A DNA stretch of 64,000 nt from assembly GCF_026130545.1 (NCBI RefSeq), contig NZ_JAMOIM010000022.1, positions 1-64,000 on the forward strand. The letters are read 5' to 3'. Below the pieces are notes generated by a model. The model was not told where the DNA came from, made no database searches, and worked only from the letters and a program-made list of their open reading frames with translations. Below are positions 26,848 to 42,455 of this stretch, piece after piece (position 1 is the first letter of the stretch; the number at the start of each line of letters is the position of its first letter). Made by a program: the position numbers and the translations under genes. Source of the DNA: Lichenifustis flavocetrariae. Its GTDB lineage: Bacteria; Pseudomonadota; Alphaproteobacteria; Rhizobiales; Beijerinckiaceae.

Positions 26848-27144
26848 ATGTGCCTGGCTTGTAGCTTCCCCACCGCGGACGGCCATTGGAGCGATGCCGG
26901 GGCCGTCGCCGGGGGGCTCGGACCGGACCGCATGCTGGACCTGTTGCGGCGGCTGCTGGCCAACGAATCCCTGTCGATCCGACGCGTGGCCCCACGCGCG
27001 GGGTTTCTCGTGACGACGCCATCGGGGCGCGCGGCGCGCGCCACCACGATCGACGATGTCTGGCCGGTCGTCCAGCTGCTGACGGGCCGCACAATCGACC
27101 CGCTTCTGAGTGCGCCGCAGCGGTCGGACGGCGCAGGCCAGTGA
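26848..27144 (+). CDS. Small hypothetical protein coupled to CobW
   Basis: A 98-residue soluble protein starting MCLACSFPTADGHW, with an N-terminal CxxC and no recognised domain. An AAAGAGA site precedes ATG 26848. Its stop overlaps the GTG of the following CobW gene (GTGA), so the two are translationally coupled and likely work together. A role in metal handling is a guess from the CxxC and this coupling. Confidence 0.65.
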   Translation: MCLACSFPTADGHWSDAGAVAGGLGPDRMLDLLRRLLANESLSIRRVAPRAGFLVTTPSGRAARATTIDDVWPVVQLLTGRTIDPLLSAPQRSDGAGQ

Positions 27145-28076
27145 GGCGAAGCCGAGCGCGGCTGACCGTGCTGGGCGGCTTCCTCGGGGCCGGCAAGTCG
27201 ACCTGGCTGCGGCATCACCTCAGCTCCGGCGTATTCGACGGTGCCTGCGTGGTGGTCAACGAAGCCGCCGCCACGCCCATCGACGATCTGCTCCTCAGCG
27301 GGGCAGGACGCCTTGAGGTGGTGGCGGGAGGCTGCGCGTGCTGCGCGCGCAAGACCGAGTTGCTCGCGCTGATGCGGCAGGTCTGCGGCGAACCGGGGAG
27401 CGCAGTCGAGCGAATCGTCATCGAGACAAGCGGGCTCGCCGATCCGCAAGCGATCGTCCAGGCGATCCAGGACGATCCGTCCCTGGCGGGCGCGATCGAG
27501 ATCGGCGAGGTCGTGGTCCTGGTCGATGCGCGTCACGGGCTCGACGTGCTGCGCCGCGAGGCTTTGGCCCGCCGCCAGGTCGCCAGCGCCGACTGCCTGA
27601 TCCTCACCAAACTCGACGCGGTGGACGTGGCAACGACACAGCGATTGACGGCCTGTCTCGATTGGCTCAACCCGATGGCGTCACGGTTCGGCGCCGTCTT
27701 GGGCGCCGAGACCGCGCTGCCGCCGGACGACGGCGCCCTGGCGGCACAGATGCCCGACTGTATGGCCGACCAGGAAGGTGCGCCGCTACGGGCGGCGGAG
27801 GTCACGCTCAATGGCACGGACTGGTCGATGTTCAGCCTGTGGCTGTCAGCGCTCCTGCATGCGCGAAGGCCGGACATCGCCCGCGTGAAGGGCGTGATCG
27901 GCACCCCGGCGGGCCGATTGCTGGTGCAGGCCGTGCAGGGCGCCGTACATGCGGCCGCCATCCTGCCGGGGCCGCCCGCGACCGGCGACGGCACCATCGT
28001 CGTGATCGGCAGAGGTTTTGCGGGCGACGAACTCCAGCGCTCGTTCGAGCGCTTCAAAACGGCTTGCGGCGCTTGA
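27141..28076 (+). CDS. CobW/COG0523-family metal-chaperone GTPase
   Basis: A 311-residue G3E GTPase. P-loop GGFLGAGKST near residue 15, the family metal motif GCACC (CxCC) near residue 67, switch motif ETSGLADP near 95, and nucleotide-specificity LTKLD near 155. The CobW C-terminal domain occupies the last 100 residues. Such proteins insert Zn, Co or Fe into client enzymes. Upstream of a MetE-like zinc enzyme and near a metal amidohydrolase, either of which could be the client. GTG start overlaps the upstream gene. Confidence 0.87.
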   Translation: MRRSRARLTVLGGFLGAGKSTWLRHHLSSGVFDGACVVVNEAAATPIDDLLLSGAGRLEVVAGGCACCARKTELLALMRQVCGEPGSAVERIVIETSGLADPQAIVQAIQDDPSLAGAIEIGEVVVLVDARHGLDVLRREALARRQVASADCLILTKLDAVDVATTQRLTACLDWLNPMASRFGAVLGAETALPPDDGALAAQMPDCMADQEGAPLRAAEVTLNGTDWSMFSLWLSALLHARRPDIARVKGVIGTPAGRLLVQAVQGAVHAAAILPGPPATGDGTIVVIGRGFAGDELQRSFERFKTACGA

Positions 28077-28164
28077 TCTTCGGCCTTTACAGCGCCGCAG
28101 GCCTTTCGTACGCGATCAGCAAGACACCGCTGAAAGCAGCGATCGACCCCCGGGAGGACGACTG

Positions 28165-29355
28165 ATGAAAACCAGCACTGACGGCATTCTGACCACTCAC
28201 ACGGGCAGCCTCCCCCGCTCGAAAGCGCTGTCGTCGCTGCTGGTCAAGCGGGAACAGCGCAAGCCATTCGACGCGGAAGCGCTACGGACCGAAATCGAGC
28301 ACAATCTCGACGAGAACGTGAAGCGGCAGGCCGAGAACGGCATCACGGTCGGCAACGATGGCGAGACGCCGCGCGTCGGATTCTCGACCTACACGACCGA
28401 GCGGATGTCCGGTTTTGGTGGCGAGTCGGTTCGCAAACCGACGCTGGACGCGGTCAAGTTTCCCGGCTTCGCGGATTTCATGAAGCGCCAGATCGGCGTG
28501 GCAGACGATCTCGCGAAGGTGTGGAACGCGCCGCAAGCCGTCGGCAAACTGCACTACGACCCGACCCTGACCGAGGCCAAGGAAGAGTCGGTCGCGTTCC
28601 AGGACTCCCTAAAGCGCACGGGCACGAAGTTCGTCGAGACCTTCATGTCGGCGGCCTCCCCAGGCATCGTGTCGACCACCATGCTGCTGTCGCCCGACAA
28701 TCCCGAATACAAGACTGACGCAGACTATGTGATGGCGATCGCCCGCGAGCTGAAGCAGGAATACGAATACATCGTCAGCCAGGGCTACGTGCTGCAGCTC
28801 GATGCGCCCGATCTTGCGATGGAGCGGGTGATCATGTTCGGCGATCAGCCCCTCAACGTCTTCCTCGACCGTGTCGCGTTGCATATCGAAGCGATCAACG
28901 TCGCGGTCGCGAATATTCCGCGCGATCGGGTTCGCCTGCACGTCTGCTGGGGCAACTGGAACGGGCCGCATCAGGACGACGTCGATATGGCCGACCTGCT
29001 GCCGCTGCTCTACAAGGCGAAGGTGGGCGCGTTGTCGATCCCGGTCGGCAATCCCCGCCACGAGCACGAGATCGAGACGTTCCGGACCCTCCCGCTACCC
29101 AAGGAGATGATCCTGATTCCCGGCGTTATCGATGTGACAACCAACTATCTCGAGCATCCCGAGGTGGTGGCGAACCGCCTGTGTGCGGCGGTCGCGGCGG
29201 TGGGCGACAAGGAGCGGGTGATCGGCGGCACCGATTGCGGCTTCGGCACGTTCGCGAGCTACGAATTCATCGCCGAGGATATCGTCTGGGCGAAGCTGAA
29301 GACGCTGTCGGACGGCGCCGCCATCGCGACCAAACGCCTGTGGGGCCGTGCCTGA
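28165..29355 (+). CDS. MetE-like (cobalamin-independent methionine synthase C-terminal) protein
   Basis: A 396-residue protein of the single-barrel MetE/UROD-like superfamily. The zinc ligands expected of this family are visible: His-x-Cys in RLHVCWGNW (about residues 259-261) and Cys in IGGTDCGFGTF (about 358), with candidate acidic ligands between. It begins ILTTHTGSLPR, usual for the short MetE-like group that lacks the N-terminal domain. Such proteins act as thiol methyl- or alkyl-transferases, often in catabolic clusters, rather than in bulk methionine synthesis. GGGAGGA precedes ATG 28165. Substrate unknown. Confidence 0.85.
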   Translation: MKTSTDGILTTHTGSLPRSKALSSLLVKREQRKPFDAEALRTEIEHNLDENVKRQAENGITVGNDGETPRVGFSTYTTERMSGFGGESVRKPTLDAVKFPGFADFMKRQIGVADDLAKVWNAPQAVGKLHYDPTLTEAKEESVAFQDSLKRTGTKFVETFMSAASPGIVSTTMLLSPDNPEYKTDADYVMAIARELKQEYEYIVSQGYVLQLDAPDLAMERVIMFGDQPLNVFLDRVALHIEAINVAVANIPRDRVRLHVCWGNWNGPHQDDVDMADLLPLLYKAKVGALSIPVGNPRHEHEIETFRTLPLPKEMILIPGVIDVTTNYLEHPEVVANRLCAAVAAVGDKERVIGGTDCGFGTFASYEFIAEDIVWAKLKTLSDGAAIATKRLWGRA

Positions 29356-29415: not shown

Positions 29416-30186
29416 CTAGACGCCGAGTGAAAACCCCTCGTCCATCACCATGATGGCGCCGTGGACGGGCTTGCTGTCCTCGCACGCGAGGTAGAGCGCC
29501 ATGCGGGCGATCTCCTCGGGTTGCGAATAGGTCCGGCCGCTCGGCGTGCGGGCGGTCATCATGTCGAGAAAGCCGCGGTACTGCTCTTCGGTGCGCAGGT
29601 TTTCGTTCATGGGTGTGGCGGTGTTGCCCGGCGCGATGGCGTTGACGTGGACACCATCTCGGCCGAATTCGATCGCGAGCGAGCGCGTCAGCATGTTCAC
29701 CGCGGCCTTGCTGGCGCAGTAGGCGGCGTAATTGGCCAGCGCCATGGTCCCCAGCACCGACGAGATGTCGACGATCCAGCCGGTTTTCCGGGCACGCATT
29801 TCCGGCGCGATGGCCTCGATCGTGTTCCAGGTGCCTTTCACGTTGATGTCCATGACGCGCTCGAAGGCGTCCGGCTCGGTGCTTCCCGAGGGCGTGGGCG
29901 GGAAGACGCCGGCCGAGTTGACGAGGATGTCGATCGGTCCGTGTGCCGCCACGGCGGCCGCGACCGCGACCTTCACGGCATCGGCCTTGCGGACGTCGGC
30001 CGCGTAGGCCGAGGCCGATCCCCCCGCGTCGCGAATGGCTTGCGCCACGCGCTCCGCCTTGCCGAGATCGGTACTCGCCAGCACCGCGACGCTGGCGCCT
30101 TCCCGTGCGAAAAGCAGGGCTGTCTGTTCGCCGATGCCTTGCGAGCCTCCGGCGATGAATGCAACGCGACCTTCAAGCTTTCTCAT
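29416..30186 (-). CDS. SDR-family oxidoreductase
   Basis: A 256-residue short-chain dehydrogenase: GGSQGIGEQTALLFAREGAS, DILVNSAGVF, catalytic Ser in ISSVLG, YCASK Tyr-Lys, and MNENLRTEEQYRGF before a C-terminal MVMDEGFSLGV. Start at 30186 (MRKLEGRVAFIAGG) rather than 30246. It diverges from the amidohydrolase across a 250-bp region with two overlapping palindromes and converges on the MetE-like gene. A dehydrogenase step of the same pathway is plausible. Confidence 0.87.
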   Translation of the reverse strand: MRKLEGRVAFIAGGSQGIGEQTALLFAREGASVAVLASTDLGKAERVAQAIRDAGGSASAYAADVRKADAVKVAVAAAVAAHGPIDILVNSAGVFPPTPSGSTEPDAFERVMDINVKGTWNTIEAIAPEMRARKTGWIVDISSVLGTMALANYAAYCASKAAVNMLTRSLAIEFGRDGVHVNAIAPGNTATPMNENLRTEEQYRGFLDMMTARTPSGRTYSQPEEIARMALYLACEDSKPVHGAIMVMDEGFSLGV

Positions 30187-30308
30187 GGCGTTTCTCCCGT
30201 TTTTTGTCTTGAACCAGTCCACCGAACTGCGCCGCAACTCCATCACGAGCCATCACCCCAGCGCATGGAGGTCATTACGCCTCCTGATTTGACCGGGTTG
30301 GATCATGT

Positions 30309-30439: not shown

Positions 30440-31840
30440 ATGGATCGGACCATCATCCGAAATGCTATCGTGCTGTCGATGGATTCGACGATAGGTGAAC
30501 ATCTCGATTGCGACGTGTTGATCGAGGGCACCAAGATCGTCGCGGTCCAGCCCAATCTCGGCCCGGTCGATGCGCTCGAGATCGACGGTCGCGACTCGAT
30601 CGTTATGCCAGGCTTCGTCGATACGCATCGCCATACCTGGCAATGTCTGCTTCGCAATACTGCGACGGATTGGAGTCTCGCACAGTATTTCGGTGGTGTT
30701 CGCGGCGTGATGGGCGAGCTCTACACACCCGATGATATGTATGTGGCAAATTACATCGGCTCTCTCGAAGCCCTCGATGCCGGCATCACCACGATGGTGG
30801 ACTGGTCTCACAACAACAATTCGCCCGACCACGCCGATATGGCCATCAAAGGCTTGCGCGACGCTGGGTTGCGCGCCGTGTTCGGTTACGGCAATGCCAA
30901 TCGCGAATGGTTTCCCATCAGCAACCTGCCGACCGACTTCGCCGATGTGGCCCGGGTGCGCAAACAGCACTTCTCGTCCGACGATGGGCTGGTCACCATG
31001 GCGTTCGCGGCGCGCGGTCCGCAATTCGCCACGATGGAGCAGACCGAGATCGACTTCCGTCGGGCCCGCGCGCTTGACCTGCCGATTACGCTCCACGCCG
31101 GGGATGGCCTTTGGGGACTCGATCACCCGATCGACCAGCTCAACGCCAAGGGCCTCTTGGGGCCACGCACCACCTACGTGCATTGCTGCACGCTTAGCGA
31201 CCACGAGTTCAAGCTGATGGCCGAGTCGGGCGGCAGCGCCTCGTTGTCGGCCGAGGTGGAACTCAACATGGGGCACGGCAACCCCGCGACGCTAGGCTGC
31301 CTGAAGTACGGTCTGCGCCCGAGCATCTCGATCGACGTCTGCACCTCAGTCGGCGGTGATATGTTCACCCAGATTCGCGTGCTGATGGCGGCGAGCCGCG
31401 GTGTGGTCAACGCCGAGGCGCTGCGGGACCGCAAACTGCTCGACCCCGTCCCGCTGACGGCGCGCGACATGCTGGATTTCGCGACCCTGCAAGGCGCCAA
31501 GACCGCCAATCTCGATCACAGGACCGGTTCGCTGACGCCCGGCAAGGACGCCGATCTCATCATCCTCGACACCAATGCGCTGAACATGTTCCCGGTCAAC
31601 AACCCGGTCGGGGCCGTGGTGTCGGATGCCCATATCGGCAACATCGACTCGGTGTTCGTGCGCGGCCGTGCCGTCAAGCGGCATGGCAAGCTCGTGGACG
31701 TCGACATCAAGGCCCTGCGCCGTCGCATGGAATCGACGGTCGAAGGCCTGTTCGAACGGGCCGGGGTCGCGCGGGACGGTAATTGGCTGCCGAAACCCTA
31801 CGTGGGCGGCACGGACGCCGACGTGTCGGACATAGATTAG
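30440..31840 (+). CDS. Metal-dependent amidohydrolase (cytosine deaminase/chlorohydrolase-like)
   Basis: A 466-residue amidohydrolase-superfamily enzyme. Metal and catalytic residues: GFVDTHRHTWQ (His63, His65), LHAGDG (third His), YVHCCTLSD (fourth His) and SIDVCTSVG (Asp). A small beta-sandwich from N- and C-terminal parts ends with GKDADLIILDT. This is the branch that includes SsnA-, AtzA/TrzN- and guanine deaminase-like hydrolases acting on N-heterocycles. AAAAGGGG precedes ATG 30440. First gene of a six-gene catabolic/transport operon. Confidence 0.88.
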   Translation: MDRTIIRNAIVLSMDSTIGEHLDCDVLIEGTKIVAVQPNLGPVDALEIDGRDSIVMPGFVDTHRHTWQCLLRNTATDWSLAQYFGGVRGVMGELYTPDDMYVANYIGSLEALDAGITTMVDWSHNNNSPDHADMAIKGLRDAGLRAVFGYGNANREWFPISNLPTDFADVARVRKQHFSSDDGLVTMAFAARGPQFATMEQTEIDFRRARALDLPITLHAGDGLWGLDHPIDQLNAKGLLGPRTTYVHCCTLSDHEFKLMAESGGSASLSAEVELNMGHGNPATLGCLKYGLRPSISIDVCTSVGGDMFTQIRVLMAASRGVVNAEALRDRKLLDPVPLTARDMLDFATLQGAKTANLDHRTGSLTPGKDADLIILDTNALNMFPVNNPVGAVVSDAHIGNIDSVFVRGRAVKRHGKLVDVDIKALRRRMESTVEGLFERAGVARDGNWLPKPYVGGTDADVSDID

Positions 31841-31859: not shown

Positions 31860-32171
31860 ATGCCGCGCTACACCTACGAGTGCGCCGCTTGCGGCAGCTT
31901 TGACGAGAGCCGCCCCATGGCGGCTTACTCGGAGCCCTTCGCCTGTCCGCACTGCGGCGATCTCGCGCCGCGCGCGATGGCTGCGGCCCGGATCGGGGGA
32001 GGGGCCGCGCGGGCGCCCGCCGGGGCCGCCGCACCGTCGCGACGTCACAGCGCCGGGTGCGGCTGCTGTTCGCCGCGGCTGAGCGGCGCGATGCGGGCCG
32101 AGGCCGTTGCGGCAGGGGCGCCGCGGCGCGGTCCCGCGCCGACGGCCGGCTCCTTCCTCACGCGAGAATGA
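31860..32171 (+). CDS. FmdB-type zinc ribbon protein
   Basis: A 103-residue protein beginning MPRYTYECAACGSFDESRPM with CxxC pairs at residues 8/11 and 29/32, the single zinc ribbon of FmdB proteins. The remainder is Ala/Gly-rich with a GCGCC cluster and is probably disordered. FmdB-type proteins are often next to amidase and formamidase genes and are presumed regulatory. Sits between the amidohydrolase and the transporter; its stop overlaps the permease ATG (ATGA). Confidence 0.82.
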   Translation: MPRYTYECAACGSFDESRPMAAYSEPFACPHCGDLAPRAMAAARIGGGAARAPAGAAAPSRRHSAGCGCCSPRLSGAMRAEAVAAGAPRRGPAPTAGSFLTRE

Positions 32172-33208
32172 TGATGTCGGGCAACGGTCAGGCCGCGGCG
32201 TTGCGCGGGGTCGGCGGATGGCGCCGGGCGGTTCCGCCGCAATTCCTGATGATCGTGCCGGCCACCCTCCTGCTCTACGCGATCAGTCTCGTCGTGGCCC
32301 CCGGCAGCGTCGCGCCCAGTTCGCTCCTGACCGTGCTGTGCTTCGCGTCGATCCTGGCGCTCGCCGCGCTCGGGCAGACGCTGGTGATCCAGCAAGGCGG
32401 ACTCGATTTGAGCGTGCCGGGCGTGATCTCGCTTGCGGCCGTGCTTGTCACCAAATTTCCTGCCGGTGACAATGCCGTTCTGGCACTTTGGATCGCGGCC
32501 GCCCTGGCGAGCGGCCTTCTGTCCGGTCTGCTCTGCGGCGTCGCGATCACCCGGTTCCGGGTCACGCCACTCGTCGCGACGCTCGCGGTCAACGCGCTGC
32601 TTTACGGCACGGTCCTCTACCTCACCAAGGGCACCTCGACCGAGGCCGTCCCATCGGGGCTCGGCACCTTCGCGGTCGGGCGCACGATCGGCGTCCCCAA
32701 CCTCGCCTGGTTCGCGCTCGTCGTGGTGACGCTCGCCGAGGTCGTGGTGCGCGCGACCGTGATGGGCCGCCGGTTCGTCGCCGTCGGGGTGTCGGCCCGC
32801 GCCGCCCGCGCCGCCGCCCTTCCGGTCACAAGCACCAAGATCATAACGTATGGGGTTGCCGGGGTCGCCTACGCGCTGGCCGGTGTCCTGCTGGCAGGCT
32901 ACCTCGGGGTACCGAGTCTATTGGTTGGCCAGACTTACCTGCTGCCGACCATCACGGTGGTGGTGCTGGGTGGAACGTCGCTGACGGGCGGCGCGGGCAG
33001 CGTCGCCGCTACCGCGATCGGCGCGATCTTCCTGGTGCAGCTCCAACAGGTCATCATCGGCATGGGCGCCCCCACCTCGGCGCAGTTCATTATCCAGGCC
33101 GCCATCATCCTGCTTGGCATGGCATTGCGGGCTGTGCCATGGCGGATCGGCGCGGGAGGGCTGCGGGCGCGCGTCGCCGGCCAACGCGCGCTTCGTCCAG
33201 GGGGCTAG
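32168..33208 (+). CDS. Ribose-type ABC transporter permease
   Basis: A 346-residue RbsC-like permease with eight to ten hydrophobic helices. Typical segments: LAALGQTLVIQQGGLDLSVP near residue 70, FRVTPLVATLAVNALLYG, and VVVLGGTSLTGGAGSVAATA near 280. Start at 32168 gives an ATGA overlap with the FmdB gene. A second permease domain is provided by the fused gene 34420-36906, so the channel may be a heterodimer. Confidence 0.87.
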   Translation: MMMSGNGQAAALRGVGGWRRAVPPQFLMIVPATLLLYAISLVVAPGSVAPSSLLTVLCFASILALAALGQTLVIQQGGLDLSVPGVISLAAVLVTKFPAGDNAVLALWIAAALASGLLSGLLCGVAITRFRVTPLVATLAVNALLYGTVLYLTKGTSTEAVPSGLGTFAVGRTIGVPNLAWFALVVVTLAEVVVRATVMGRRFVAVGVSARAARAAALPVTSTKIITYGVAGVAYALAGVLLAGYLGVPSLLVGQTYLLPTITVVVLGGTSLTGGAGSVAATAIGAIFLVQLQQVIIGMGAPTSAQFIIQAAIILLGMALRAVPWRIGAGGLRARVAGQRALRPGG

Positions 33209-33287: not shown

Positions 33288-34400
33288 ATGATCTCCTCCA
33301 AGTCGAAACGCCTCATGATGGGCGCGGCCGCCGGTATGGTGCTGGCAGCCAACCTCACGCCGGGGCTCGCCGCCGAGGATGCCCAGGCGATCATCGCCAA
33401 CGCCGGCAAGACGACCGACACCTCGTTCTGCGGCACCAAGCCGATTACGCTCGGCGTGCATGATGGGTTCGGCATCAACGGGTGGTCTCGCGCCTCAATG
33501 GCGGCGGTCCGCTCGGAAGCCGCCAAATGCCCCAACGTCAAACAGGTGGCGCGCATCGGCCAAGGCGACCTGCAAAAGTCGATCGCGGACGTCAACGGCA
33601 TGGTGTCGGAGGGCATCGACGCGCTCGCGATCATTCCTGATTGGGGCAAGTCGCAACTGCCCTCGCTCCGCTCCGCCACCGAGGCTGGGGTCAAGACCGT
33701 GCCGTGGGGCGCCGATCCCGGCGGTCAGAAAGGCAGCGACTATGTCGATTATCTCGATTGGAACGAGCACGCGGCGGGCGTCGCCTGGGCCGAGTGGGTC
33801 GCCAAGGCCATCAAGGGCGACGGCAATGTGGTGTTCCTCGGTGGCCCGGCCGGCAACCCGGTGAGCGCGCACGCGCTGGCCGGCATCGTCGAGGCGTTCA
33901 AGAAATACCCCAAGATCACGCTGCTGACGGGTGACAAGGACTGGCCGGTGACCAATTGGGACGCGTCGCTGATCCAGCAGAACATCACCGCGCTGCTGGG
34001 CAAATACCCGAAGATCGACGCCGTGATCAACGACAGCGATGGCTTCGCGGCGCTGGGCGTGGTGCGCGCCTACCAAAGCGCCAACAAGCCGCTCGTGCCC
34101 CTCGCTTCGTTGGAAGCGAACGGGTTGGCTTGCGAATATCTGAAGCTCAAAGGTGTCAACGCGGGCTTCCAGATCGGTACCATCTCGGGCCGCAACTGGA
34201 TCGGGCGCGTCGCGGCCCGCAAGGCCATCGCGGCAGCCGAAGGGCTCTCTAACGACGAGCCCAACCGCTTTGACCTTGGCATCTACGAGGATTCGCTCGG
34301 TGGCCGCGCGCCGGTCTGCGATCCCGCGCAAGGGCCCGATGCCTTCACGTCGTCGGGCCTGAGCGCGAGCGACCTTGCCCAGTATGGCAAGGCCGAGTGA
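33288..34400 (+). CDS. Ribose-type ABC transporter substrate-binding protein
   Basis: A 370-residue periplasmic binding protein of the sugar-binding (RbsB-like) class. A signal peptide covers about residues 1-28 (MGAAAGMVLAANLTPGLAAE). Family segments include DVNGMVSEGIDALAIIPDWG and NDSDGFAALGVVRAYQSANK. The mature N-terminus has a paired Cys (FCGTK and EAAKCPN). Follows the permease by 79 bases and precedes the ATPase fusion by 19, all in one operon. Ligand unknown. Confidence 0.87.
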   Translation: MISSKSKRLMMGAAAGMVLAANLTPGLAAEDAQAIIANAGKTTDTSFCGTKPITLGVHDGFGINGWSRASMAAVRSEAAKCPNVKQVARIGQGDLQKSIADVNGMVSEGIDALAIIPDWGKSQLPSLRSATEAGVKTVPWGADPGGQKGSDYVDYLDWNEHAAGVAWAEWVAKAIKGDGNVVFLGGPAGNPVSAHALAGIVEAFKKYPKITLLTGDKDWPVTNWDASLIQQNITALLGKYPKIDAVINDSDGFAALGVVRAYQSANKPLVPLASLEANGLACEYLKLKGVNAGFQIGTISGRNWIGRVAARKAIAAAEGLSNDEPNRFDLGIYEDSLGGRAPVCDPAQGPDAFTSSGLSASDLAQYGKAE

Positions 34401-34419: not shown

Positions 34420-36906
34420 ATGAGCACCCTGCCGCGCCCCGTTCTGCGCCTGACCGACGTGGTCAAGACCTTCCCGGGCGTCGTTGCGCTCGGGGGCGTC
34501 AGCCTGGAGGTGGTAGCGGGCGAGGTCCATGCCCTTCTGGGCGAAAACGGGGCTGGAAAGTCCACGCTGATGGCGGTTGCGGCCGGCGCGCTTGCGCCCG
34601 ACTCGGGCCAGATCGAGATCGGCGGAGAGCTGCTGAGCGAAGCCTCGCCGGCGCTGGCCCAGGCGCTCGGCATCGCGGTCGTGTACCAGCACACCTCGGT
34701 GATCGAGGATCTCACGGTCGCCGAGAACCTGCTGTTTTGCGTGCCCGCCGCGCGCCGCGCTGGCGCTGGGGGCGAGGTGGCGTGGATCAATGCGCAGCTC
34801 GCCGCCGTAGGGGCCACCTTCGACCGCCGGACGCGCGTCAGCGATCTCAGCGTGGCCGAACGCCAGCTCGTGGAGATCGCGAAAGCGCTGGCGCTGCGGC
34901 CAAAGGTGCTGGTGCTCGATGAGCCGACCGAAGCCCTGACCGCCATCGAGACCGAGCGTCTGTTCGCCCAGATCGGGCGCATCACGGAGCAGGGCACCGC
35001 GGTCGTCTATATTTCGCACCGCCTGCCCGAGGTGCGCCGCATCGCGGAGCGCATCAGCATTTTGCGCGACGGGCGTTTCCGCGGCACCTTCCCGGCCTCG
35101 GGCGTGTCGGAAGAGGAGATCCTGGCGCTGATCATCGGCCGCTCCGTCGACCGCGCCTTTCCGCATAAGGATACCGCCAAGCTCGGCGCCCCGCCCGTGC
35201 TGGTCGCCCGAGACGTGCGAAACGACCGGCTCCAGAGCGTCGACCTCGAGGTCCGCCCTGGCGAGGTCGTCGGGTTGGCCGGGGTCGAGGGCAACGGGCA
35301 ACGCGACTTCATCCGGGCGTTAGCCGGGCTGACACCCATTACAGGTAGGCTCACGGTGCGCGATCGGCCGGTCGCGACCTCCGACCCCATCGCGGCGCAG
35401 AACGGCGGCCTGATCTTCCTGCCTGGCGACCGGCATGCCGAAGGGCTGCTGCTGCCGCTCACGATCCGCGAGAATCTGACGTTGCTCGTGCTCGGCACGC
35501 TGACGCGCTACGGCCTCGTGGCACGCGACAAGGAACTGGCGCTGGCGACGAGCTATGGTGAAAAGCTTGCGATCAAGGCGCCTTCGCCGGAAGCAAACAT
35601 CGGACATCTCTCGGGCGGCAATCAGCAAAAGGTGCTGTTCGCGCGCTCCATGGCGGCCAACCCGGCCGTGTTCCTTGCCGACGAGCCGACCCGCGGCGTC
35701 GATGCGGGCGCGCGCGTGGAGCTCTACAAGGTGGTGCGCGACGTCGCCAGAGCCGGCGCGGGCGTCGTGGTGCTGTCCTCCGATGCCGTGGAACTGCAAG
35801 GGCTGTGCGATCGCGTCCTGGTGTTCTCGCGCGGCAAGGTGGTGAGGACGCTGACGGGCGACGACCTGACGGAAGAGAACATCACGGGCGCGGCGATCGG
35901 CTCAGCGACCCAGCGCGACGCCCCGACCGCGGCGGCCGGTGCATCCTGGTTCCGTCGGTTCACCTCCGGCGACATCGCCCCGACCCTCATCCTGGCAGCG
36001 CTGATCGTGCTGCTCGGCCTCTACACGGCGGGGGTCAACCCGAAATTCCTCAGCGACCGCAGCCTGAGCGGGACGCTGCTGCTCGCGAGCGCTCTCACGT
36101 TCGTCAGCGTCGGGCAGCTTTTCGTGTTGCTCACCGGCGGCATCGATCTGTCGGTCGGGCCCCTGACCGGGCTGATCGTGGTGGTCCTGTCCTTTTTTGC
36201 CGACGGCGATCATGGGCCGGCCACCTTCGTGCTTGGCCTTGGAGTCGCACTCGCGGTCGCGGCCTTGATAGGGCTCGTCAATGGGGTCCTGATCCGCGTC
36301 GTGAAGCTGTCGCCGCTGATCACCACGCTGGCAATGTTCATCGCGCTGCAAGGCGCCTCCTTGTCGCTTCGCTCGACGCCGGACGGCTTTTTTCGACGCG
36401 AGATCACGCAGACGCTGACGACCCGGTTCGGCTTCCTGCCGGCGGCCTTCATCGCGGCCGCCCTCGTGGTTGTCGCTCTCGAAATCATGCTGCGCCGCAC
36501 CCGGTTCGGTATGGAGCTACGGGCGGTCGGCTCGAGCGAGGTGGCGGCCTATCGGCTTGGCGCCCGCCCTGTCCGCACGGGCATCCTGGCCTATGTGGCG
36601 TGCTCGTGTTTCGCGGCGGTCGGTGGGCTCCTGCTCGCCGCGCAGGTCGGCGTTGGCGATCCGACGGTCGGCCAGACCTACACGCTGCAGAGTATCTCGG
36701 CGGTGGTGCTGGGCGGCGCCAGCATCTTCGGCGGCCGTGGCTCGTTTTTGGGCGCTCTGGCCGGCGTCCTGTTGGTGCAGGAGATCACGGCCACCACCGG
36801 CTTCCTGGGCCTGAGTTCGGCGTGGCAATATTGGTTGCCGGGGCTGCTGATCCTCACCGCGACGGCACTCTATTCTCGCACACGCACCGCGTCCGAATCG
36901 CACTAA
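34420..36906 (+). CDS. Ribose-type ABC ATPase-permease fusion
   Basis: An 828-residue protein combining an RbsA-like double ATPase (residues 1-500) with an RbsC-like permease (about 520-828). First domain: GENGAGKST, YQHTSVIEDLTVAENL, LSVAERQ, VLVLDEPTEALT. Second domain: a degenerate P-loop GVEGNGQRD, signature LSGGNQQK and Walker B VFLADEPTRGVDA. The permease part has FVLLTGGIDLSVGPL, LITTLAMFIALQG and AVVLGGASIFGGRGS. Most ribose-type systems encode these on separate genes. The separate RbsC-like permease upstream supplies the other half of the channel. GGGAG lies upstream of ATG 34420. Confidence 0.88.
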   Translation: MSTLPRPVLRLTDVVKTFPGVVALGGVSLEVVAGEVHALLGENGAGKSTLMAVAAGALAPDSGQIEIGGELLSEASPALAQALGIAVVYQHTSVIEDLTVAENLLFCVPAARRAGAGGEVAWINAQLAAVGATFDRRTRVSDLSVAERQLVEIAKALALRPKVLVLDEPTEALTAIETERLFAQIGRITEQGTAVVYISHRLPEVRRIAERISILRDGRFRGTFPASGVSEEEILALIIGRSVDRAFPHKDTAKLGAPPVLVARDVRNDRLQSVDLEVRPGEVVGLAGVEGNGQRDFIRALAGLTPITGRLTVRDRPVATSDPIAAQNGGLIFLPGDRHAEGLLLPLTIRENLTLLVLGTLTRYGLVARDKELALATSYGEKLAIKAPSPEANIGHLSGGNQQKVLFARSMAANPAVFLADEPTRGVDAGARVELYKVVRDVARAGAGVVVLSSDAVELQGLCDRVLVFSRGKVVRTLTGDDLTEENITGAAIGSATQRDAPTAAAGASWFRRFTSGDIAPTLILAALIVLLGLYTAGVNPKFLSDRSLSGTLLLASALTFVSVGQLFVLLTGGIDLSVGPLTGLIVVVLSFFADGDHGPATFVLGLGVALAVAALIGLVNGVLIRVVKLSPLITTLAMFIALQGASLSLRSTPDGFFRREITQTLTTRFGFLPAAFIAAALVVVALEIMLRRTRFGMELRAVGSSEVAAYRLGARPVRTGILAYVACSCFAAVGGLLLAAQVGVGDPTVGQTYTLQSISAVVLGGASIFGGRGSFLGALAGVLLVQEITATTGFLGLSSAWQYWLPGLLILTATALYSRTRTASESH

Positions 36907-36949
36907 GGTCTCGCTCCGCCGCGCGGCGGGGGTGGGCCAGGAGAACGTC

Positions 36950-37840
36950 ATGGGTCAGGCAGTGGGCATGGTCGGCGTCGGCGTCATGGGCTTCGCCATG
37001 GCGGCCAATCTGCGGCAGGCTGGCTTCGAGGTCGTGGGTTATGATCCCGTACCGGCCGCGATCGCGCGATTGGCCGGGATCGGGGCGAGCGGGGTTGGTT
37101 CGGCCCGCGCAGTGGCCGAAGCATGCTCCATCGTGATCCTGTCGCTGCCCTCGTCTCAAGCGCTCGCGGCCGCGGTCGAGGGCGATACCGGTCTTGCGGC
37201 GGCGGCGACCGAAGGACTGGTGGCCATCGAGTGCTCGACGCTTCCGCTCGCCGACAAGCGCGCCGCGTTCGAGGTGATGGCGGCTGCGGGCCAGACGCTG
37301 CTGGACTGCCCTCTGAGCGGCACTGGTGCCCAGGCGGTCGTCAAGGATCTCGTAGTGTTCGGCAGCGGCGATCAAGCCGCGTTCGAGCGCTGTCGCCCGG
37401 TGTTCGAGGGCATGTCCCGGGTGCAGCGCTACCTCGGTGCGTTCGGCAACGGCAGCGTCATGAAGTATCTCGCCAATCTTCTGGTGACGATCCACAACGT
37501 CTCCACCGCCGAAGCCATGGTGCTGGGACTCAAGGCGGGCCTGGATCCGAGCCTGATCTACGACACGCTGGCCGATAGCGCGGGTACGTCCCGGATGTTT
37601 CAGGTGCGCGGCCCGCTGATGCGCGACGCGTCCTACGACACGCCGACTTTCACGATCCGCACCCACCTCAAGGATCTCGCCATCATCGGCGACTTCGTGC
37701 AGGAGTTGAACAGCCCGACGCCGCTGTTCTCCGCCGCGGCCCAGATCTACCACGCCGGCGCGGCGCAAGGGCGGGACATGCAGGATACAGCTGCGGTCTG
37801 CGCGGTGCTCGAAGGCCTCGCCGGGCTGCCTTCCCGCTAA
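36950..37840 (+). CDS. 3-hydroxyisobutyrate dehydrogenase-like beta-hydroxyacid dehydrogenase
   Basis: A 296-residue NAD(P)-dependent enzyme: cofactor motif VGMVGVGVMGFAMAANLRQA at the N-terminus, substrate motif DCPLSGTGAQA near residue 122, and the catalytic Lys in GNGSVMKYLANLL near 172. Family members oxidise beta-hydroxy acids such as 3-hydroxyisobutyrate, tartronate semialdehyde or related compounds. CCAGGAGA precedes ATG 36950. Last gene of the operon, converging on the BKACE gene. Confidence 0.87.
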   Translation: MGQAVGMVGVGVMGFAMAANLRQAGFEVVGYDPVPAAIARLAGIGASGVGSARAVAEACSIVILSLPSSQALAAAVEGDTGLAAAATEGLVAIECSTLPLADKRAAFEVMAAAGQTLLDCPLSGTGAQAVVKDLVVFGSGDQAAFERCRPVFEGMSRVQRYLGAFGNGSVMKYLANLLVTIHNVSTAEAMVLGLKAGLDPSLIYDTLADSAGTSRMFQVRGPLMRDASYDTPTFTIRTHLKDLAIIGDFVQELNSPTPLFSAAAQIYHAGAAQGRDMQDTAAVCAVLEGLAGLPSR

Positions 37841-37847
37841 CGGCCGA

Positions 37848-38711
37848 TCAGGCGACCGACGATCCACCGAGAATCGCGGCCGCCTGCGCGCCAAAGGCCA
37901 GCGGCCGCCCCATCCCGCGTGCCAAGGTCGCGATGGCTGCGACACGCTCCCGGTTGTCGGCCGCCACGCGCCCATCGGCGTGCAGAAGCGAGTTCTCGAA
38001 CCCCACCCGCATATGGCCGCCCGCTGCCATCGCGGCTTCGAGCACCGCCGTCTCGCCCTGGCCGAAAGCGCAGACGGTCCAGACGGTGGTGTCGGTCAGG
38101 CCCAACCGGTCCATCGTGGCCAGTCGCGCGGCGAACTCTGCGATGTCGCTGTTCTGACCCTCGGTGTAGCGCCCCATCACCACAATGATGCGGTGCCGGG
38201 TCCCTGGCAGGAGTCCGCGCGCCACGAGGTCACTGAACCAGACGAGGTCCCGGTCGTCGTAGACAATGTATTGGCACGCGACCCCACTGGCCTGCGCCGC
38301 GAGCAGCGCCGCGGCCGCCGGCGCCTCTGCGTCGGCGAAGAACTCGCGGATCGCCACGGAAACGAAGCGCGGACGCAGCTCGGTCAGCAGCGCCGCCTGG
38401 TCGGCCGGGCTGTAGCGTCCGACGGCCTCCGTCGTGACCTGCACGACGATGTCCGGGGCCGCGACTGCAATCCGCGCCAGCTGCGCGCGATAGGCCGCGA
38501 CGTCGAGCAGATGCGCTCCGGCGGCATCACGCACATGCGCGTGGATCGCGCCTGCCCCCGCCGCGAAACAATCGGCCGCGGTCTCGGCGATCGCGTCGAG
38601 CGTGATCGGCAACGCCGCATGATCGCGCGGCATGCGTCTGGCACCCGTCGGAGCCACCATGATCAGCACGGGACGCGTCGCAAGAACCGCCCGCGACAGC
38701 GACTGCGTCAA
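37848..38711 (-). CDS. Beta-keto acid cleavage enzyme (BKACE/DUF849)
   Basis: A 287-residue TIM-barrel protein of the BKACE family, which cleaves beta-keto acids with acetyl-CoA. The zinc-site HAHVRD (His57, His59) is present, and the FENSLLHADG segment near the C-terminus fits the family. The start is a TTG at 38711 overlapping the upstream flavin reductase stop (TTGA), so the pair is coupled. It suggests the pathway passes through a beta-keto acid. Confidence 0.85.
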   Translation of the reverse strand: MTQSLSRAVLATRPVLIMVAPTGARRMPRDHAALPITLDAIAETAADCFAAGAGAIHAHVRDAAGAHLLDVAAYRAQLARIAVAAPDIVVQVTTEAVGRYSPADQAALLTELRPRFVSVAIREFFADAEAPAAAALLAAQASGVACQYIVYDDRDLVWFSDLVARGLLPGTRHRIIVVMGRYTEGQNSDIAEFAARLATMDRLGLTDTTVWTVCAFGQGETAVLEAAMAAGGHMRVGFENSLLHADGRVAADNRERVAAIATLARGMGRPLAFGAQAAAILGGSSVA

Positions 38712-39250
38712 TGTTGGATCAGCCGGCGCACCGACCCGCGATGGAACACCAGCGGCGCCGCGCCGTGATCATGCACGGCCATCACCTCGCCAACGTGGAT
38801 CTCATGGTCGCCTCCCGGATAGCGCGCGAAGGCGCGGCATTCGAGATAGGCGGCCGTCGCATGCAGTACGGGCACGCCCGTCACGCCGCGATCGAACCGG
38901 ATGTTAGCGAACTTATCGGACGAAGGGGTTGCGAATTGCCGACACAGCGGCTCCTGGTCTTCAGCCAGGATATTGATCGCGAAATACGCATGCTGCCGGA
39001 AGGCAGCCAAGCTCGGAGATTTCAGGGCGAGGCTCCACAGGATCAACGGCGGATCCAGCGAGACTGAATTGAACGAGTTCACGGTCAACCCAATCGGCCG
39101 GCCGTCTTCGCCCAGCGTGGTCACCACGACCACGCCCGTCGTGAAGGAGCCGAGCACATCCCGAAATTGACGGGCTTCCAGCGTCCTCGGGCTCCCCTGC
39201 TGCACGCTCGGCATCGCTGCTCCTTCGGCCGCCTCGATCGAACGCTGCAT
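38708..39250 (-). CDS. Flavin reductase (FMN-binding, two-component monooxygenase partner)
   Basis: A 180-residue flavin reductase-like protein: FRDVLGSFTTGVVVVTTLGE, GLTVNSFNSVSLDPPLILWS (flavin-binding), FAINILAEDQ and the closing HEIHVGEVMAV. It resembles HpaC/RutF-type NAD(P)H:flavin reductases that feed reduced FMN to a monooxygenase. Start at 39250 overlaps the monooxygenase stop (TGATG); an internal ATG at 39214 is possible. Its partner is certainly the adjacent luciferase-like enzyme. Confidence 0.87.
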   Translation of the reverse strand: MQRSIEAAEGAAMPSVQQGSPRTLEARQFRDVLGSFTTGVVVVTTLGEDGRPIGLTVNSFNSVSLDPPLILWSLALKSPSLAAFRQHAYFAINILAEDQEPLCRQFATPSSDKFANIRFDRGVTGVPVLHATAAYLECRAFARYPGGDHEIHVGEVMAVHDHGAAPLVFHRGSVRRLIQH

Positions 39251-40347
39251 CACTCGGCGGCCTTTCGCACGACCGCTCCGACCTGGAACGTCACCTTTTC
39301 GGCCAGTAGGATCATCGAACGGCGCGCGAGCGACGGATCGACCCAATCCTTGCCGGCATAGAGCAGCGTTCCGAAGGGCCCGACCTCCTGCTGGAAGCGC
39401 GCCAGATCGTCCGATACCTTGTCGGGCGTCCCCCAGACGACGAGCTTGTCGAGGACGTAGTCGATCGTGACCTCGTCGTCCGGCATCGCGGGATCGGATT
39501 TGAACAGCACGGCGCGACCGTTCTTCTTCATCTTGGTCAGTAACTGATTGTAATAGAACCGGTAGGGGCTCTGAGGCCCCAGCGCATAGTCCCGCGCGGT
39601 GTTCATATCATCGGCCACGAAGACGCTTTTGGCGACGCGCCAATCCATTGGATCGGCGACCGCGCCGACCCGCTCGCGGCCCTCGACGTATTTTGGCCAG
39701 TGGGTCGCGACCCATTGCGGCAACAGGAAGTTGGCCGAGATCGGCAACCATCCCCGCGCCGCGGCCTCGGTGATGCCCTTCGAATGGGGCGCCACCACGG
39801 TGACCACGATCGGCGGATGCGGTTGCTGGAGCGGCTTGGTCATGATGCCCTGGCCGATCTCCGGCATCATGGTGCGCTCGGTCGTGATCGTCCAGAAACG
39901 GCCTTCGATGTTGTAGGGCGGCTCGCCGGACCAGATCTTCAGGACGGTGTCGATGCCCTCGACCAGCATGGCGTTGCGGTCTTTGTCGAGGTTGCCGAAA
40001 ACTTCGGCGTCCGACAGCAGCCCGCCGGGGCTGATCCCGAAGTTGAACCGGCCATCCATCATGTGATCCAACATCGCGATCTGGCCCGCGATCGCGGCCG
40101 GATGGCTATTGGGCATGTTGATGGTGCCGGTACCGAGCCGCATGCGCTTGATGTCGCGTGCGATCCAGGTCAGGAACATCGCGCAGGACGTGATGTTCTC
40201 CGCCTGATCGGTGATGTGTTCCCCGCAGTAAGCTTCGGTGAAGCCGAGTTCATCGGCCAGAACGAATGCTTCGCGATCTTCCCTGAGGCAAAGACGCCAG
40301 TCTTTGTCCAAGGGGTGGATCGGCATCGTGAAGAAACCCAGATGCAT
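39250..40347 (-). CDS. Luciferase-like FMN-dependent monooxygenase
   Basis: A 365-residue bacterial-luciferase-family monooxygenase. Start at 40347 gives MHLGFFTMPIHPLDKDW, the normal opening strand of the barrel. Conserved segments follow: EAYCGEHITDQ, RMRLGTGTINMPNSHP, DGRFNFGISPGG and VWGTPDKVSDDLARF. It resembles members acting on organic substrates with a separate flavin reductase, which is encoded just downstream. Reactions in this family include ring opening, C-S or C-N cleavage and Baeyer-Villiger oxidation; which one applies here is unknown. Confidence 0.87.
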   Translation of the reverse strand: MHLGFFTMPIHPLDKDWRLCLREDREAFVLADELGFTEAYCGEHITDQAENITSCAMFLTWIARDIKRMRLGTGTINMPNSHPAAIAGQIAMLDHMMDGRFNFGISPGGLLSDAEVFGNLDKDRNAMLVEGIDTVLKIWSGEPPYNIEGRFWTITTERTMMPEIGQGIMTKPLQQPHPPIVVTVVAPHSKGITEAAARGWLPISANFLLPQWVATHWPKYVEGRERVGAVADPMDWRVAKSVFVADDMNTARDYALGPQSPYRFYYNQLLTKMKKNGRAVLFKSDPAMPDDEVTIDYVLDKLVVWGTPDKVSDDLARFQQEVGPFGTLLYAGKDWVDPSLARRSMILLAEKVTFQVGAVVRKAAE

Positions 40348-40452: not shown

Positions 40453-41265
40453 TCAGGCGGCGTCTGCCGTCGTGGCCAGCCATGCGCCGACGACTGCATC
40501 GAAGCGCTCGGGATTCTCGACGTTGCAGACATGGGCGCCGGGATCGACCTCGGCATAGACGGAGCCCGGCGTCGCGCCCACCATATCCCGCATCACGGCC
40601 GGGGCTGCGGCCAGATCCTGGGCGCCGCATACGAACAGGGTCGGGGCCCGGATGGCCCCGAGGGAGCGCCGGTAGTCGAGCTGCTTCAGCGCGCCCGCGC
40701 AGGCGATGTAGCCATCGGGATCGGTCGCCTGGATCATCGCGGCGGCCGCCTCGATCGCGGCCGGCTCCCGCGCCGCGAAGGCCGGCGTGAACCAACGTTC
40801 GATCGTGATGTCGACGATGGCCGCCATGCCGCCGTCCCGCACCGCCGCGATCCGCGTGTCCCAGTTCGCCACGAAAGGCGGGGGCGCGTCTGCCCGCGCG
40901 TCGCAGCAGATGACGCGTCCCAGGCGCGCGCCATGCGCGATCGCGAGACCCAGCAGTGTCATGCCGCCCATCGACAGGCCGATCACGTCGGCTCTGGCGA
41001 TGCCGAAGTGATCCATCAGTCCCAGCACGTCACGCCCGAGTTCGGCAAGGCTGGTGGGTCCCGCGAACGCGGCGCTGTCCCCATGGCCGCGGGTGTCGTA
41101 GCGCAGCACGCGATGCGTACGGGTCAGCATCGGGATCTGCAGATCCCAGCACGCCATGGTGCTGGCGAGACCGTTGGACAGCACCATCCAGGGCCGACCC
41201 GGCTCGCCGTCGAGGCGCGTCGCGAGGTCGACGCCGTTGCTACGCACGATGGATTGTTGGCTCAC
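40453..41265 (-). CDS. Alpha/beta hydrolase (3-oxoadipate enol-lactonase-like)
   Basis: A 270-residue alpha/beta hydrolase with oxyanion segment MVLSNGLASTMACWD, nucleophile elbow GLSMGGM (Ser near residue 97), late Asp in FVCGAQDLAAAP and His in GAHVCNVENP. The overall pattern matches PcaD-type enol-lactonases, also the RutD group. First gene of the minus-strand operon hydrolase-monooxygenase-reductase-BKACE; divergent from the LysR gene. Confidence 0.87.
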   Translation of the reverse strand: MSQQSIVRSNGVDLATRLDGEPGRPWMVLSNGLASTMACWDLQIPMLTRTHRVLRYDTRGHGDSAAFAGPTSLAELGRDVLGLMDHFGIARADVIGLSMGGMTLLGLAIAHGARLGRVICCDARADAPPPFVANWDTRIAAVRDGGMAAIVDITIERWFTPAFAAREPAAIEAAAAMIQATDPDGYIACAGALKQLDYRRSLGAIRAPTLFVCGAQDLAAAPAVMRDMVGATPGSVYAEVDPGAHVCNVENPERFDAVVGAWLATTADAA

Positions 41266-41435
41266 CCGGTCCGCCCTCCTGCTCGACGTGTTGGGAAGCT
41301 AGGGCGCGGCGAGAGGTCAGAGTACAATCAAAAGCTGTAATGCCCGCGATCAATTGACCTGATGACGCGAGGCGGCGCCTCGTTTGGCGATCGACTTGCA
41401 CTACAGCCCGCAAGTCTGCTTCAGTATCACGAACG

Positions 41436-42455
41436 GTGGCCTCAAGTCCGCCGGCGGGGGGAGACGACATCGAAAGCCTGACAGACATTCGCATCTTCGT
41501 CGCGGCCTACGAGGAACGCTCGTTCACCGCGGCCGCGATGCGGGAACATGCCACACAGTCGGGCGTCTCCCAGCATATTCGCAAGCTCGAAGAGGCCTAC
41601 GGGGTCAGCCTGTTCACGCGCAGCAAGGGCCAGGTCGCGCCGACGCCGGCCGCCGATGCCTATTACGAACGGTGCATCCAGGTCCTGCGGTGCCTCGCGG
41701 CCGGGAAAAGTGCCGTACGGGCTTTCGCGGGCATCGCGGGCGACGTCCATGTCGGTCTGATGCCCACCATGACGCGCGCCACACTCGCGCCGTCGATCAA
41801 GCGCGTCGTCGAAGAGCATCCCAACGTGGTGGTGCACGTGGTCGAGGCGTATAGCCGGATCCTGACCGAGAAGGTCATCACCGGCGACCTCGATTTCGCA
41901 ATCGTGCCCGCGTTCGTCGGCGGACCAGGTCTCAAGGTGCAGCCGTTCCTGCAGACTTGGGAGACCCTGGTGGCTCATCCGAACCGGGGGGCCCACCTCT
42001 CCCGCGTCCGCCTGCGAGACGGACCGCCGTTGCGCGTCGTACTCCCGAGCGGGGTCAATACCCGTCGTGGCACCCTCGATACATACATCCGCAGCAATGC
42101 CGTTCCAATCGATCGCATGCTCGAGATGGACACCATGATGGGGGCGCTCGATCTCGTGGCGACCTCCGATTGGGTGACGATCGTTCCTGCCCTTCTGATG
42201 AACGGCGATATTGACGGCAGACAGTTCTCGGTCAGCTTGATCGTCGATCCGGTCGCGACCCTGGATCTTGTTCTGATCGAGCCGTTGCGCCAGACTCTCA
42301 GTCCTGCCGCGCAAGCGTTTCTGGATATCATCAAGGCTGAAGCGCATCGCTTGAACGAAGTCTGGCGAGAGCTGTTCTCCGAAACAGTGGCCCCCCACCA
42401 GACGCCGTCGATCGCCTTCCGCGCTGCCGACCTCCCGCAAACCGCCTTGACCTAA
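41436..42455 (+). CDS. LysR-type transcriptional regulator
   Basis: A 339-residue LysR regulator starting at GTG 41436. Its winged helix covers residues 15-75 (DIRIFVAAYEERSFTAAAMR, SGVSQHIRKLEEAYGVSLFT) and the effector domain follows (GDVHVGLMPTMTRATLAPSI; GDLDFAIVPAFVGG). Divergent from the alpha/beta hydrolase across 170 bases that include AGGTCA at 41314 and TGACCT at 41355. It probably controls the minus-strand monooxygenase operon and possibly the plus-strand transport operon. Confidence 0.87.
   Translation: MASSPPAGGDDIESLTDIRIFVAAYEERSFTAAAMREHATQSGVSQHIRKLEEAYGVSLFTRSKGQVAPTPAADAYYERCIQVLRCLAAGKSAVRAFAGIAGDVHVGLMPTMTRATLAPSIKRVVEEHPNVVVHVVEAYSRILTEKVITGDLDFAIVPAFVGGPGLKVQPFLQTWETLVAHPNRGAHLSRVRLRDGPPLRVVLPSGVNTRRGTLDTYIRSNAVPIDRMLEMDTMMGALDLVATSDWVTIVPALLMNGDIDGRQFSVSLIVDPVATLDLVLIEPLRQTLSPAAQAFLDIIKAEAHRLNEVWRELFSETVAPHQTPSIAFRAADLPQTALT

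Follow-up and report, generated by a model that had tools for sequence, protein, structure and literature searches.

The window analysed here, 64 kb of contig NZ_JAMOIM010000022.1 of Lichenifustis flavocetrariae (contig C95 of the 7.5-Mb draft genome), contains at positions 26848-42455 a block of 14 open genes, i.e., 13 enzyme, transport, and chaperone genes and one gene for a LysR-type regulator. Judging from the sequence, the amidohydrolase, transporter, and oxygenase operons of this block probably constitute one LysR regulon, in which the regulator would be paired with a common operator-like site. The set probably serves to import a small ring-shaped compound, to oxygenate it with opening of the ring, and to break the product down to central metabolites. 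To the fuller reading, an inducible catabolic regulon with import by a CUT2-type transporter, an amidohydrolase step, Baeyer-Villiger oxygenation, lactone opening, and cleavage by a beta-keto acid cleavage enzyme (BKACE), we give about an even chance.

The plus strand carries, in this order, the genes of a 98-aa protein, a CobW-type GTPase, a MetE-like protein, an amidohydrolase, a CUT2 permease, a periplasmic binding protein, a fused ABC protein, and a HIBADH-like dehydrogenase, with a short-chain dehydrogenase/reductase (SDR) gene on the minus strand before the amidohydrolase. The minus strand encodes, in order, an alpha/beta hydrolase, a luciferase-like monooxygenase, a flavin reductase, and BKACE; these genes converge on the HIBADH-like dehydrogenase gene, and the LysR gene is divergent from the hydrolase gene. 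The block is not one undivided unit. Support is strongest for a core in which the genes for the amidohydrolase, the CUT2 transporter, and the beta-hydroxyacid dehydrogenase face those for the hydrolase, monooxygenase, reductase, and BKACE, with the divergent LysR gene. An earlier note on this DNA had counted 14 genes plus the regulator: the block and all the protein types that it named are present and open, but the count here is 13 plus LysR, and the higher figure may come from counting the fused ABC protein as two.

Operator-like sites and the linkage of the two arms

Nine promoter regions of the window and of JOPF122, a metagenome-assembled genome (MAG) named Rhodospirillales, were compared pairwise, with five shuffles each way. 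The regions upstream of the two amidohydrolase genes share 16 of 17 bases (shuffles 11-13), the other pairs being unremarkable, and the pattern ATTAC-N6-TGAT, which has a T-N11-A form, was recognised by eye in three promoters. T-N11-A is the form of LysR sites. The exact matches in the window are:

30274..30288, plus strand: operator-like site ATTAC-N6-TGAT, between the divergent SDR and amidohydrolase genes
41327..41341, minus strand: operator-like site ATTAC-N6-TGAT, between the divergent hydrolase and LysR genes

A 26-kb contig of JOPF122 (C73) has three exact sites, located about 82 bp before the hydrolase gene, 121 bp before the amidohydrolase gene, and 157 bp before the gene of a second CUT2 binding protein, whose start was chosen by eye. 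The whole 7.5-Mb genome to which the window belongs has 10 exact sites, two of them in the block, and two matches to the reversed pattern.

Since three sites had defined the pattern, the fair test lies in other loci. We took the best 80 of 542 loci with a relative of the monooxygenase (68-82% identical), many of them cut by contig ends, and left out JOPF122; the region considered was at most 250 bases upstream of monooxygenase or hydrolase genes. In the 79 other loci, 5 of the 13 exact sites (from four loci) fall in the 1.2% of the sequence that lies upstream of these genes (binomial p 3e-7). An exact site stands upstream in 4 of the 79 loci, compared with a mean of 0.13 and a maximum of 2 for 60 scrambled patterns, and a site with at least eight of the nine bases in 29, compared with a mean of 3.0 and a maximum of 12.

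The genes themselves are also linked in the second genome. Contig C73 encodes an amidohydrolase (80% identical), a LysR regulator (75%), a hydrolase (63%), a monooxygenase (82%), a reductase (71%), and a dehydrogenase (46%), together with two CUT2 systems, one comprising a binding protein and a fused CUT2 ATPase-permease, as well as HisD, SDRs, a PucR-type regulator, and others. A T-N11-A site is present upstream of both putative operons and conserved in a second genome, and this sharing of the site by both arms, with its conservation in JOPF122 and in the other loci, makes it probable that the two arms are one LysR regulon. Most of the genes are tied together by this common control site. The site was found near neither CobW nor MetE in the window, nor on the contig of JOPF122 that encodes a MetE-like protein (C258), and, on sequence grounds, these two genes appear to lie outside the LysR regulon, their membership of the pathway being less secure.

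The earlier note had set scattered homologues and independent expression of the two operons against its own proposal, a picture against which the linkage in the second genome and the shared operator-like site speak. Of the genes whose order it proposed to look for in other genomes, those for transport, the amidohydrolase, and the monooxygenase and hydrolase are linked in JOPF122, and BKACE, CobW, and MetE were not found on contig C73 at E<=1e-5. A plasmid of Mesorhizobium ciceri has the permease, binding protein, and fused ABC genes in the order of the window, with hisD, an amidohydrolase, two dehydrogenases, and an SDR.

The monooxygenase is present in 32 of 249 genomes of the same order at E<=1e-60, the own genome included. 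Nine genomes of 0.9-1.5 Mb in this order (G003, G054, G091, G125, G153, G178, G201, G221, and G241; family f4) also encode a monooxygenase, 48-52% identical; its retention thus extends to small genomes. Among the 80 loci, relatives of its neighbours (tblastn, E<=1e-15) were found for LysR in 53, the hydrolase in 45, the HIBADH-like dehydrogenase in 35, the flavin reductase in 29, generic ABC ATPases (25-36% identical) in 14, the SDR in 8, BKACE in 3, and the amidohydrolase in 2 (one 80% and one 25% identical). Relatives of MetE-like, CobW, permease, and binding protein were found in none of the 80 at this threshold. The other partners, counted as single-linkage clusters of mechanically called open reading frames with one member per cluster scanned, are subunits of molybdenum (Mo) hydroxylases (2Fe-2S 33, Mo-binding 32, FAD 27), TRAP transporters (large permease 31, binding protein 29), a PuuE-like deacetylase (29), a protein of the Pfam Cyclase family (22), and a FAD oxygenase-like protein (21).

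Because relatives of BKACE are widespread (74 of the 249 order genomes at E<=1e-40, own included), their occurrence in 3 of 80 loci is weak by itself. The argument is carried by position and rank: in all three loci (L081, L090, and L130) the BKACE gene lies on the strand of the monooxygenase, within one or two genes of it, and adjoins the monooxygenase, reductase, or hydrolase gene, and the best match among the 73 other genomes (G211) stands beside a monooxygenase, being the same Propylenella locus as L081 and no separate case.

Enzymes of the two arms and the proposed pathway

The right arm comprises the following genes:

37848..38711, minus strand: BKACE (Pfam BKACE, PF05853, 6e-59, 200.1 bits; gathering threshold 24.8)
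38708..39214, minus strand: flavin reductase, likely partner of the monooxygenase (Pfam Flavin_Reduct 1.4e-40; GDH motif visible)
39250..40347, minus strand: luciferase-like flavin monooxygenase (Pfam Bac_luciferase 1.6e-35)
40453..41265, minus strand: alpha/beta hydrolase close to 3-oxoadipate enol-lactonase (PcaD) (TIGR02427, 245.6 bits; cut-off 255.85)
41436..42455, plus strand: LysR-type regulator (Pfam HTH_1 9e-20, LysR_substrate 5e-26), divergent from the hydrolase-monooxygenase-reductase-BKACE genes

The monooxygenase matched 24 curated NCBIfam families at E<=1e-3, none above its cut-off. Among solved structures, the closest in sequence is 3,6-diketocamphane 1,6-monooxygenase (2.8e-20, 21-23% identity), which was also found first with an AlphaFold model (21 sequences, pLDDT 82) at a TM score of 0.82, the top four PDB matches being chains of 4uwm and 5aec (TM 0.80-0.82). 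The predicted model thus has a luciferase-like TIM-barrel fold close to that of the diketocamphane monooxygenases, as in the type II Baeyer-Villiger class, and the flavin reductase gene, 35 bp downstream, provides the nearby partner of that class. The model is closest to a type II Baeyer-Villiger enzyme, which makes conversion of a ketone into an ester or lactone a candidate activity. The Rut pathway was ruled out: no RutA model is among the 24 NCBIfam matches, and isochorismatase and RutC-type families are absent from the 14 genes.

The hydrolase is close to the PcaD equivalog TIGR02427, yet falls below its cut-off, and thus is not assigned to PcaD proper. BKACE scores well above its Pfam threshold, and its residues H57, H59, and E239, which we take to be metal ligands, are invariant in 12 of 12 aligned sequences; its gene overlaps that of the flavin reductase by 4 bases.

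The left arm comprises the following genes:

29416..30186, minus strand: SDR (Pfam adh_short_C2 1.5e-58)
30440..31840, plus strand: amidohydrolase of TRZ/ATZ type, NCBIfam PRK08204 subfamily (566.4 bits; cut-off 391)
32057..33208, plus strand: CUT2-type ABC permease, start codon uncertain (Pfam BPD_transp_2 1.8e-27)
33288..34400, plus strand: periplasmic binding protein, ribose/sugar type (Pfam Peripla_BP_4 3.5e-31)
34420..36906, plus strand: fused double ABC ATPase and permease of the CUT2 transporter (Pfam ABC_tran 2e-45 in two stretches, BPD_transp_2 2.6e-29)
36947..37840, plus strand: beta-hydroxyacid dehydrogenase of HIBADH/tartronate semialdehyde reductase type (Pfam NAD_binding_2 3e-32, NAD_binding_11 2.7e-26)

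The amidohydrolase passes the curated cut-off of its subfamily, and the PDB relatives of the binding protein are mostly sugar-binding proteins. At E<=1e-130 the amidohydrolase was found in the own genome alone among 385 genomes of the class, as was the binding protein at E<=1e-60 (1 of 289 genomes). A 49% identical amidohydrolase relative on plasmid pBB2 of Cupriavidus necator N-1 (L223) lies near genes for a maleylacetate reductase and an intradiol ring-cleavage dioxygenase, a neighbourhood that hints at a hydroxyquinol-type route there.

Luciferase-type enzymes are described as Baeyer-Villiger monooxygenases in camphor (PMC8706424) and progesterone (PMC12239570) catabolism, and BKACE enzymes as transferring the acetyl moiety of beta-keto acids to acetyl-CoA (PMC6365646). 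In the pathway that we propose, the LysR protein (41436-42455) would bind the ATTAC-N6-TGAT sites before the two facing operons. A polar cyclic substrate would be imported by the CUT2 transporter and processed by the amidohydrolase and dehydrogenases of the left operon, the amidohydrolase acting ahead of a route from ketone to lactone, keto acid, and CoA ester. In the right operon, the reductase would supply reduced flavin to the luciferase-type enzyme, whose oxygenation would most likely be a Baeyer-Villiger insertion yielding an (enol-)lactone; the PcaD-like hydrolase would open the lactone to give a keto acid, and BKACE, using acetyl-CoA, would cut the beta-keto acid into a CoA ester and acetoacetate. 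The earlier note had drawn a similar route, of which the transport, amidohydrolase, and monooxygenase-hydrolase genes do prove to be linked and to share an operator-like site, while the order of the steps and the N-heterocyclic substrate that it suggested can only be inferred.

Several observations weigh against this reading. The two upstream regions of the window match each other at 13 of 17 bases, no better than shuffles (12-13), and the count of two exact sites in the 64-kb window, compared with 0.05 expected, is partly circular, the pattern having been derived from three of these promoters. At seven of the nine bases the contrast in the other loci shrinks (58 loci; mean 28.6 and maximum 46 for scrambled patterns), and several of the 29 loci with at least eight bases are close relatives and not 29 independent cases. 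BKACE, CobW, MetE, and close relatives of the binding protein are absent from contig C73 of JOPF122 at E<=1e-5. Among the 80 loci the reductase was not found in 51 and the hydrolase in 35, partly through contig ends, and since Mo-hydroxylases and TRAP transporters are the commonest other partners, the substrates of the relatives may differ. Finally, luciferase-like enzymes catalyse many reactions, and the closest solved match of the monooxygenase is only 21-23% identical.

The CobW and MetE-like genes and other readings of the block

The left end of the block carries three further genes:

26848..27144, plus strand: 98-aa protein with an N-terminal MCLACSFP motif, overlapping the CobW start by 4 bases
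27141..28076, plus strand: COG0523/CobW-type GTPase (metal chaperone), GTG start (Pfam cobW 4e-32, CobW_C 1e-9; CXCC and Walker A intact)
28165..29355, plus strand: MetE-like zinc thiol alkyltransferase-like protein, single barrel without a folate domain (Pfam Meth_synt_2 1.5e-8)

The GTPase has both domains and both motifs of COG0523 proteins, and no Pfam family was found for the 98-aa protein. Of 17 other CobW places, 6 have a relative of the latter no more than 100 bases upstream of CobW at E<=1e-3 (a seventh has one 765 bases away), and 10 have one at E<=1. All four plasmids inspected (CobW relative 46-50% identical) carry genes for a polysaccharide deacetylase, a small protein, and the GTPase, in this order and in clusters for nitrogen compounds, with an asparaginase, hydantoinase, or amidohydrolase gene near. 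The small proteins of all four are related to the 98-aa protein (29-37% identity when aligned directly) and have the common motif MCxxC.FP.A.GHW; a search of the plasmid collection with the 98-aa protein at E<=1e-3 gave no match, a miss that the direct alignment shows to be one of sensitivity. The recurring neighbourhood suggests that the pair may deliver metal to deacetylases or amidohydrolases. Like the COG0523 metal chaperones (PMC2770081), the GTPase has a CXCC motif and a CobW_C domain, but it is paired with a small Cys-motif protein, and its neighbours elsewhere are amidohydrolase and deacetylase genes; in the main text of that source, hydantoinase and amidohydrolase are never mentioned, and deacetylase once. 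In the present block, the pair would probably deliver metal to the amidohydrolase or to the MetE-like enzyme.

The MetE-like protein has the HxC...C zinc motif of core-MetE proteins (H258-x-C260 and C357), invariant in 12 of 12 aligned sequences and in 8 of 8 of a second alignment. Glu is the fourth zinc ligand in MetE (PMC539065), and Asp in core-MetE (PMC7005905), as those sources describe it. The corresponding column (near residue 290), placed by alignment to 1u1h, has Pro in the protein of the window and in that of locus L003, and Glu in the other 10 of the 12 and in JOPF122; the window protein thus does not have the acidic fourth ligand of core-MetE. It resembles the core-MetE methionine synthases (PMC7005905) in being a single-barrel MetE homologue with the same zinc motif, and differs from what is described of them in the Pro, in its catabolic setting, and in its low curated-model score. 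An ordinary methionine synthase was ruled out by that score (best curated NCBIfam model 70.6 bits, cut-off 406). Epoxyalkane:coenzyme M transferase (XecA), a further candidate, was tied to the protein by no solved relative and by none of the papers listed. The MetE-like enzyme may remove an alkyl group from the substrate or be a passenger.

That the block is composite, with the LysR regulon (amidohydrolase, transporter, dehydrogenase, and oxygenase operon) forming one pathway and the CobW/98-aa/MetE genes being an unrelated unit that landed beside it, is a serious alternative, to which we give a little less than an even chance. It is favoured by the absence of the operator-like site near CobW and MetE, by the lack of both genes in the 80 monooxygenase loci, and by their company elsewhere. 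The neighbours of MetE-like relatives are hisD, SnoaL/ester cyclase, and cupin genes or, in other places, genes of C1 and aromatic ring-cleavage functions, whereas CobW relatives are accompanied by deacetylase genes and by those for a hydantoinase or an amidohydrolase. Against it, the gene for a MetE-like protein (49% identical) lies on a separate contig of JOPF122, C258, about 400 bases from that for a fused CUT2 transporter, which is 43% identical to the one of the window over the part present before the contig ends. Moreover, the monooxygenase occurs in 5 of 15 genomes of the order with MetE and in 31 of 248 overall, a weak co-occurrence (p 0.027, uncorrected for kinship), and genome G145 has MetE, flavin reductase, and monooxygenase genes within 17 kb. 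On the Marinovum plasmid pMaD9 (L068), monooxygenase (65%) and MetE-like (40%) genes lie within 24 kb, with SnoaL, hisD, and cupin genes and genes annotated for dimethylsulfoniopropionate breakdown. The earlier note had made CobW and the MetE-like protein pathway members; the genes are there, but they have no site and, at E<=1e-15, no relatives in the 80 loci.

A route for N-heterocycles, in which the monooxygenase opens a nitrogen ring, with nitrogen removal and opening of the remainder left to the amidohydrolase and the hydrolase, is possible but rather unlikely. RutA and the pyridine and trigonelline oxygenases are the model for such ring opening, and the mix of Mo-hydroxylase, deacetylase, cyclase, and FAD oxygenase that accompanies the monooxygenase relatives in the 80 loci is known from heterocycle degradation; the CobW pair also stands beside hydantoinase and deacetylase genes elsewhere. 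This route is opposed by the lack of a RutA model among the NCBIfam matches of the monooxygenase, by a best fold match that is a Baeyer-Villiger enzyme acting on ketones, and by the absence of a Mo-hydroxylase gene among the 14 genes of the block. Among the literature matches listed, those on homarine, trigonelline, and pyridine pathways do not contain this gene set.

A sugar-acid pathway, with CUT2 import of a sugar, deoxy-sugar acid, or cyclitol, oxidation by the SDR to a 3-keto acid cut by BKACE, and an ancillary oxygenase operon, is quite improbable: SDR, BKACE, and lactonase are the set described for deoxyribonate (PMC6365646) and CUT2 binding proteins are of the sugar type, but the hydrolase is PcaD-like, the BKACE gene overlaps that of the flavin reductase and lies beside the monooxygenase or its partner genes, on the same strand, in 3 of 3 loci that have it, and the deoxyribonate pathway, as described there, has neither flavin oxygenase nor amidohydrolase.

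The inducible regulon that we prefer can be extended to a new aerobic pathway under one LysR operator, in which an amidohydrolase step, luciferase-type Baeyer-Villiger ring expansion, enol-lactone opening, and CoA-dependent cleavage of a beta-keto acid would be joined by a MetE-like dealkylase with a Pro site and by a dedicated COG0523/98-aa pair metallating the zinc or iron enzymes. We regard this whole combination as improbable.

Borders of the block, known systems, and meaning

On the right, the block is followed by an IstB/IS21 remnant (Pfam E 9e-50) and a DDE_Tnp_1 piece (E 4.7e-6), and on the left there is a weak DDE_Tnp_ISL3 match (E 0.0017, below the Pfam cut-off). These agree with part of the insertion-sequence borders in the earlier note, but no confirmation was obtained for its IS630 and left-hand IS5 scraps (a scan of one piece on the right gave no family). 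The flanks are mobile-element remnants around a real, largely intact gene block, a probable catabolic regulon of a widespread, apparently undescribed kind. Just left of the remnant lie an open M20-family amidase-like gene (23380-24657) and a TetR regulator gene (24878-25537), which could belong to the same catabolic region. To the right, a beta-ketoacyl synthase split over two overlapping open reading frames (44662-45689) is a decayed neighbour.

The block has a G+C content of 0.663, compared with 0.646 for the remainder of the window, and in 2-kb windows the block (0.62-0.69) stays inside the range of the whole window (0.59-0.69), so base composition does not mark it as foreign. Megablast against 72,556 plasmid records gave no match to a known plasmid. 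The recent acquisition proposed by the earlier note gains nothing from base composition, but is plausible because the amidohydrolase is confined to the own genome within its class at the threshold given above and the closest relative found comes from JOPF122, the MAG named Rhodospirillales, whereas the window is probably from Hyphomicrobiales.

Among known systems, 3,6-diketocamphane 1,6-monooxygenase and the other type II Baeyer-Villiger monooxygenases share the fold and the two-component organisation with a separate flavin reductase (PMC8706424); the enzyme of the window is distant from them in sequence, has other neighbours (amidohydrolase, CUT2, and BKACE), and is known here from sequence and model. 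The pdc cluster of Caenibius tardaugens (PMC12239570) likewise has a luciferase-like enzyme, a Baeyer-Villiger monooxygenase acting on progesterone, in a catabolic cluster with regulators, but its substrate is a steroid and the portion of the source used reports no amidohydrolase, CUT2, or BKACE. The deoxyribonate oxidation cluster (PMC6365646) follows the same logic of SDR, BKACE, and lactonase ending in beta-keto acid cleavage, but its described transport is MFS and not CUT2. Keyword searches of the open-access literature gave, by title and start of abstract among the matches listed, no description of this gene set or of the monooxygenase family, in line with the view of the earlier note that no pathway with this set had been described.

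The CobW/98-aa pair is a candidate metal delivery system dedicated to deacetylases and amidohydrolases. The monooxygenase family is common in the order and apparently undescribed in the literature matches listed, and the shared operator offers a direct way to find the pathway genes of each genome and to see which inducer to seek.

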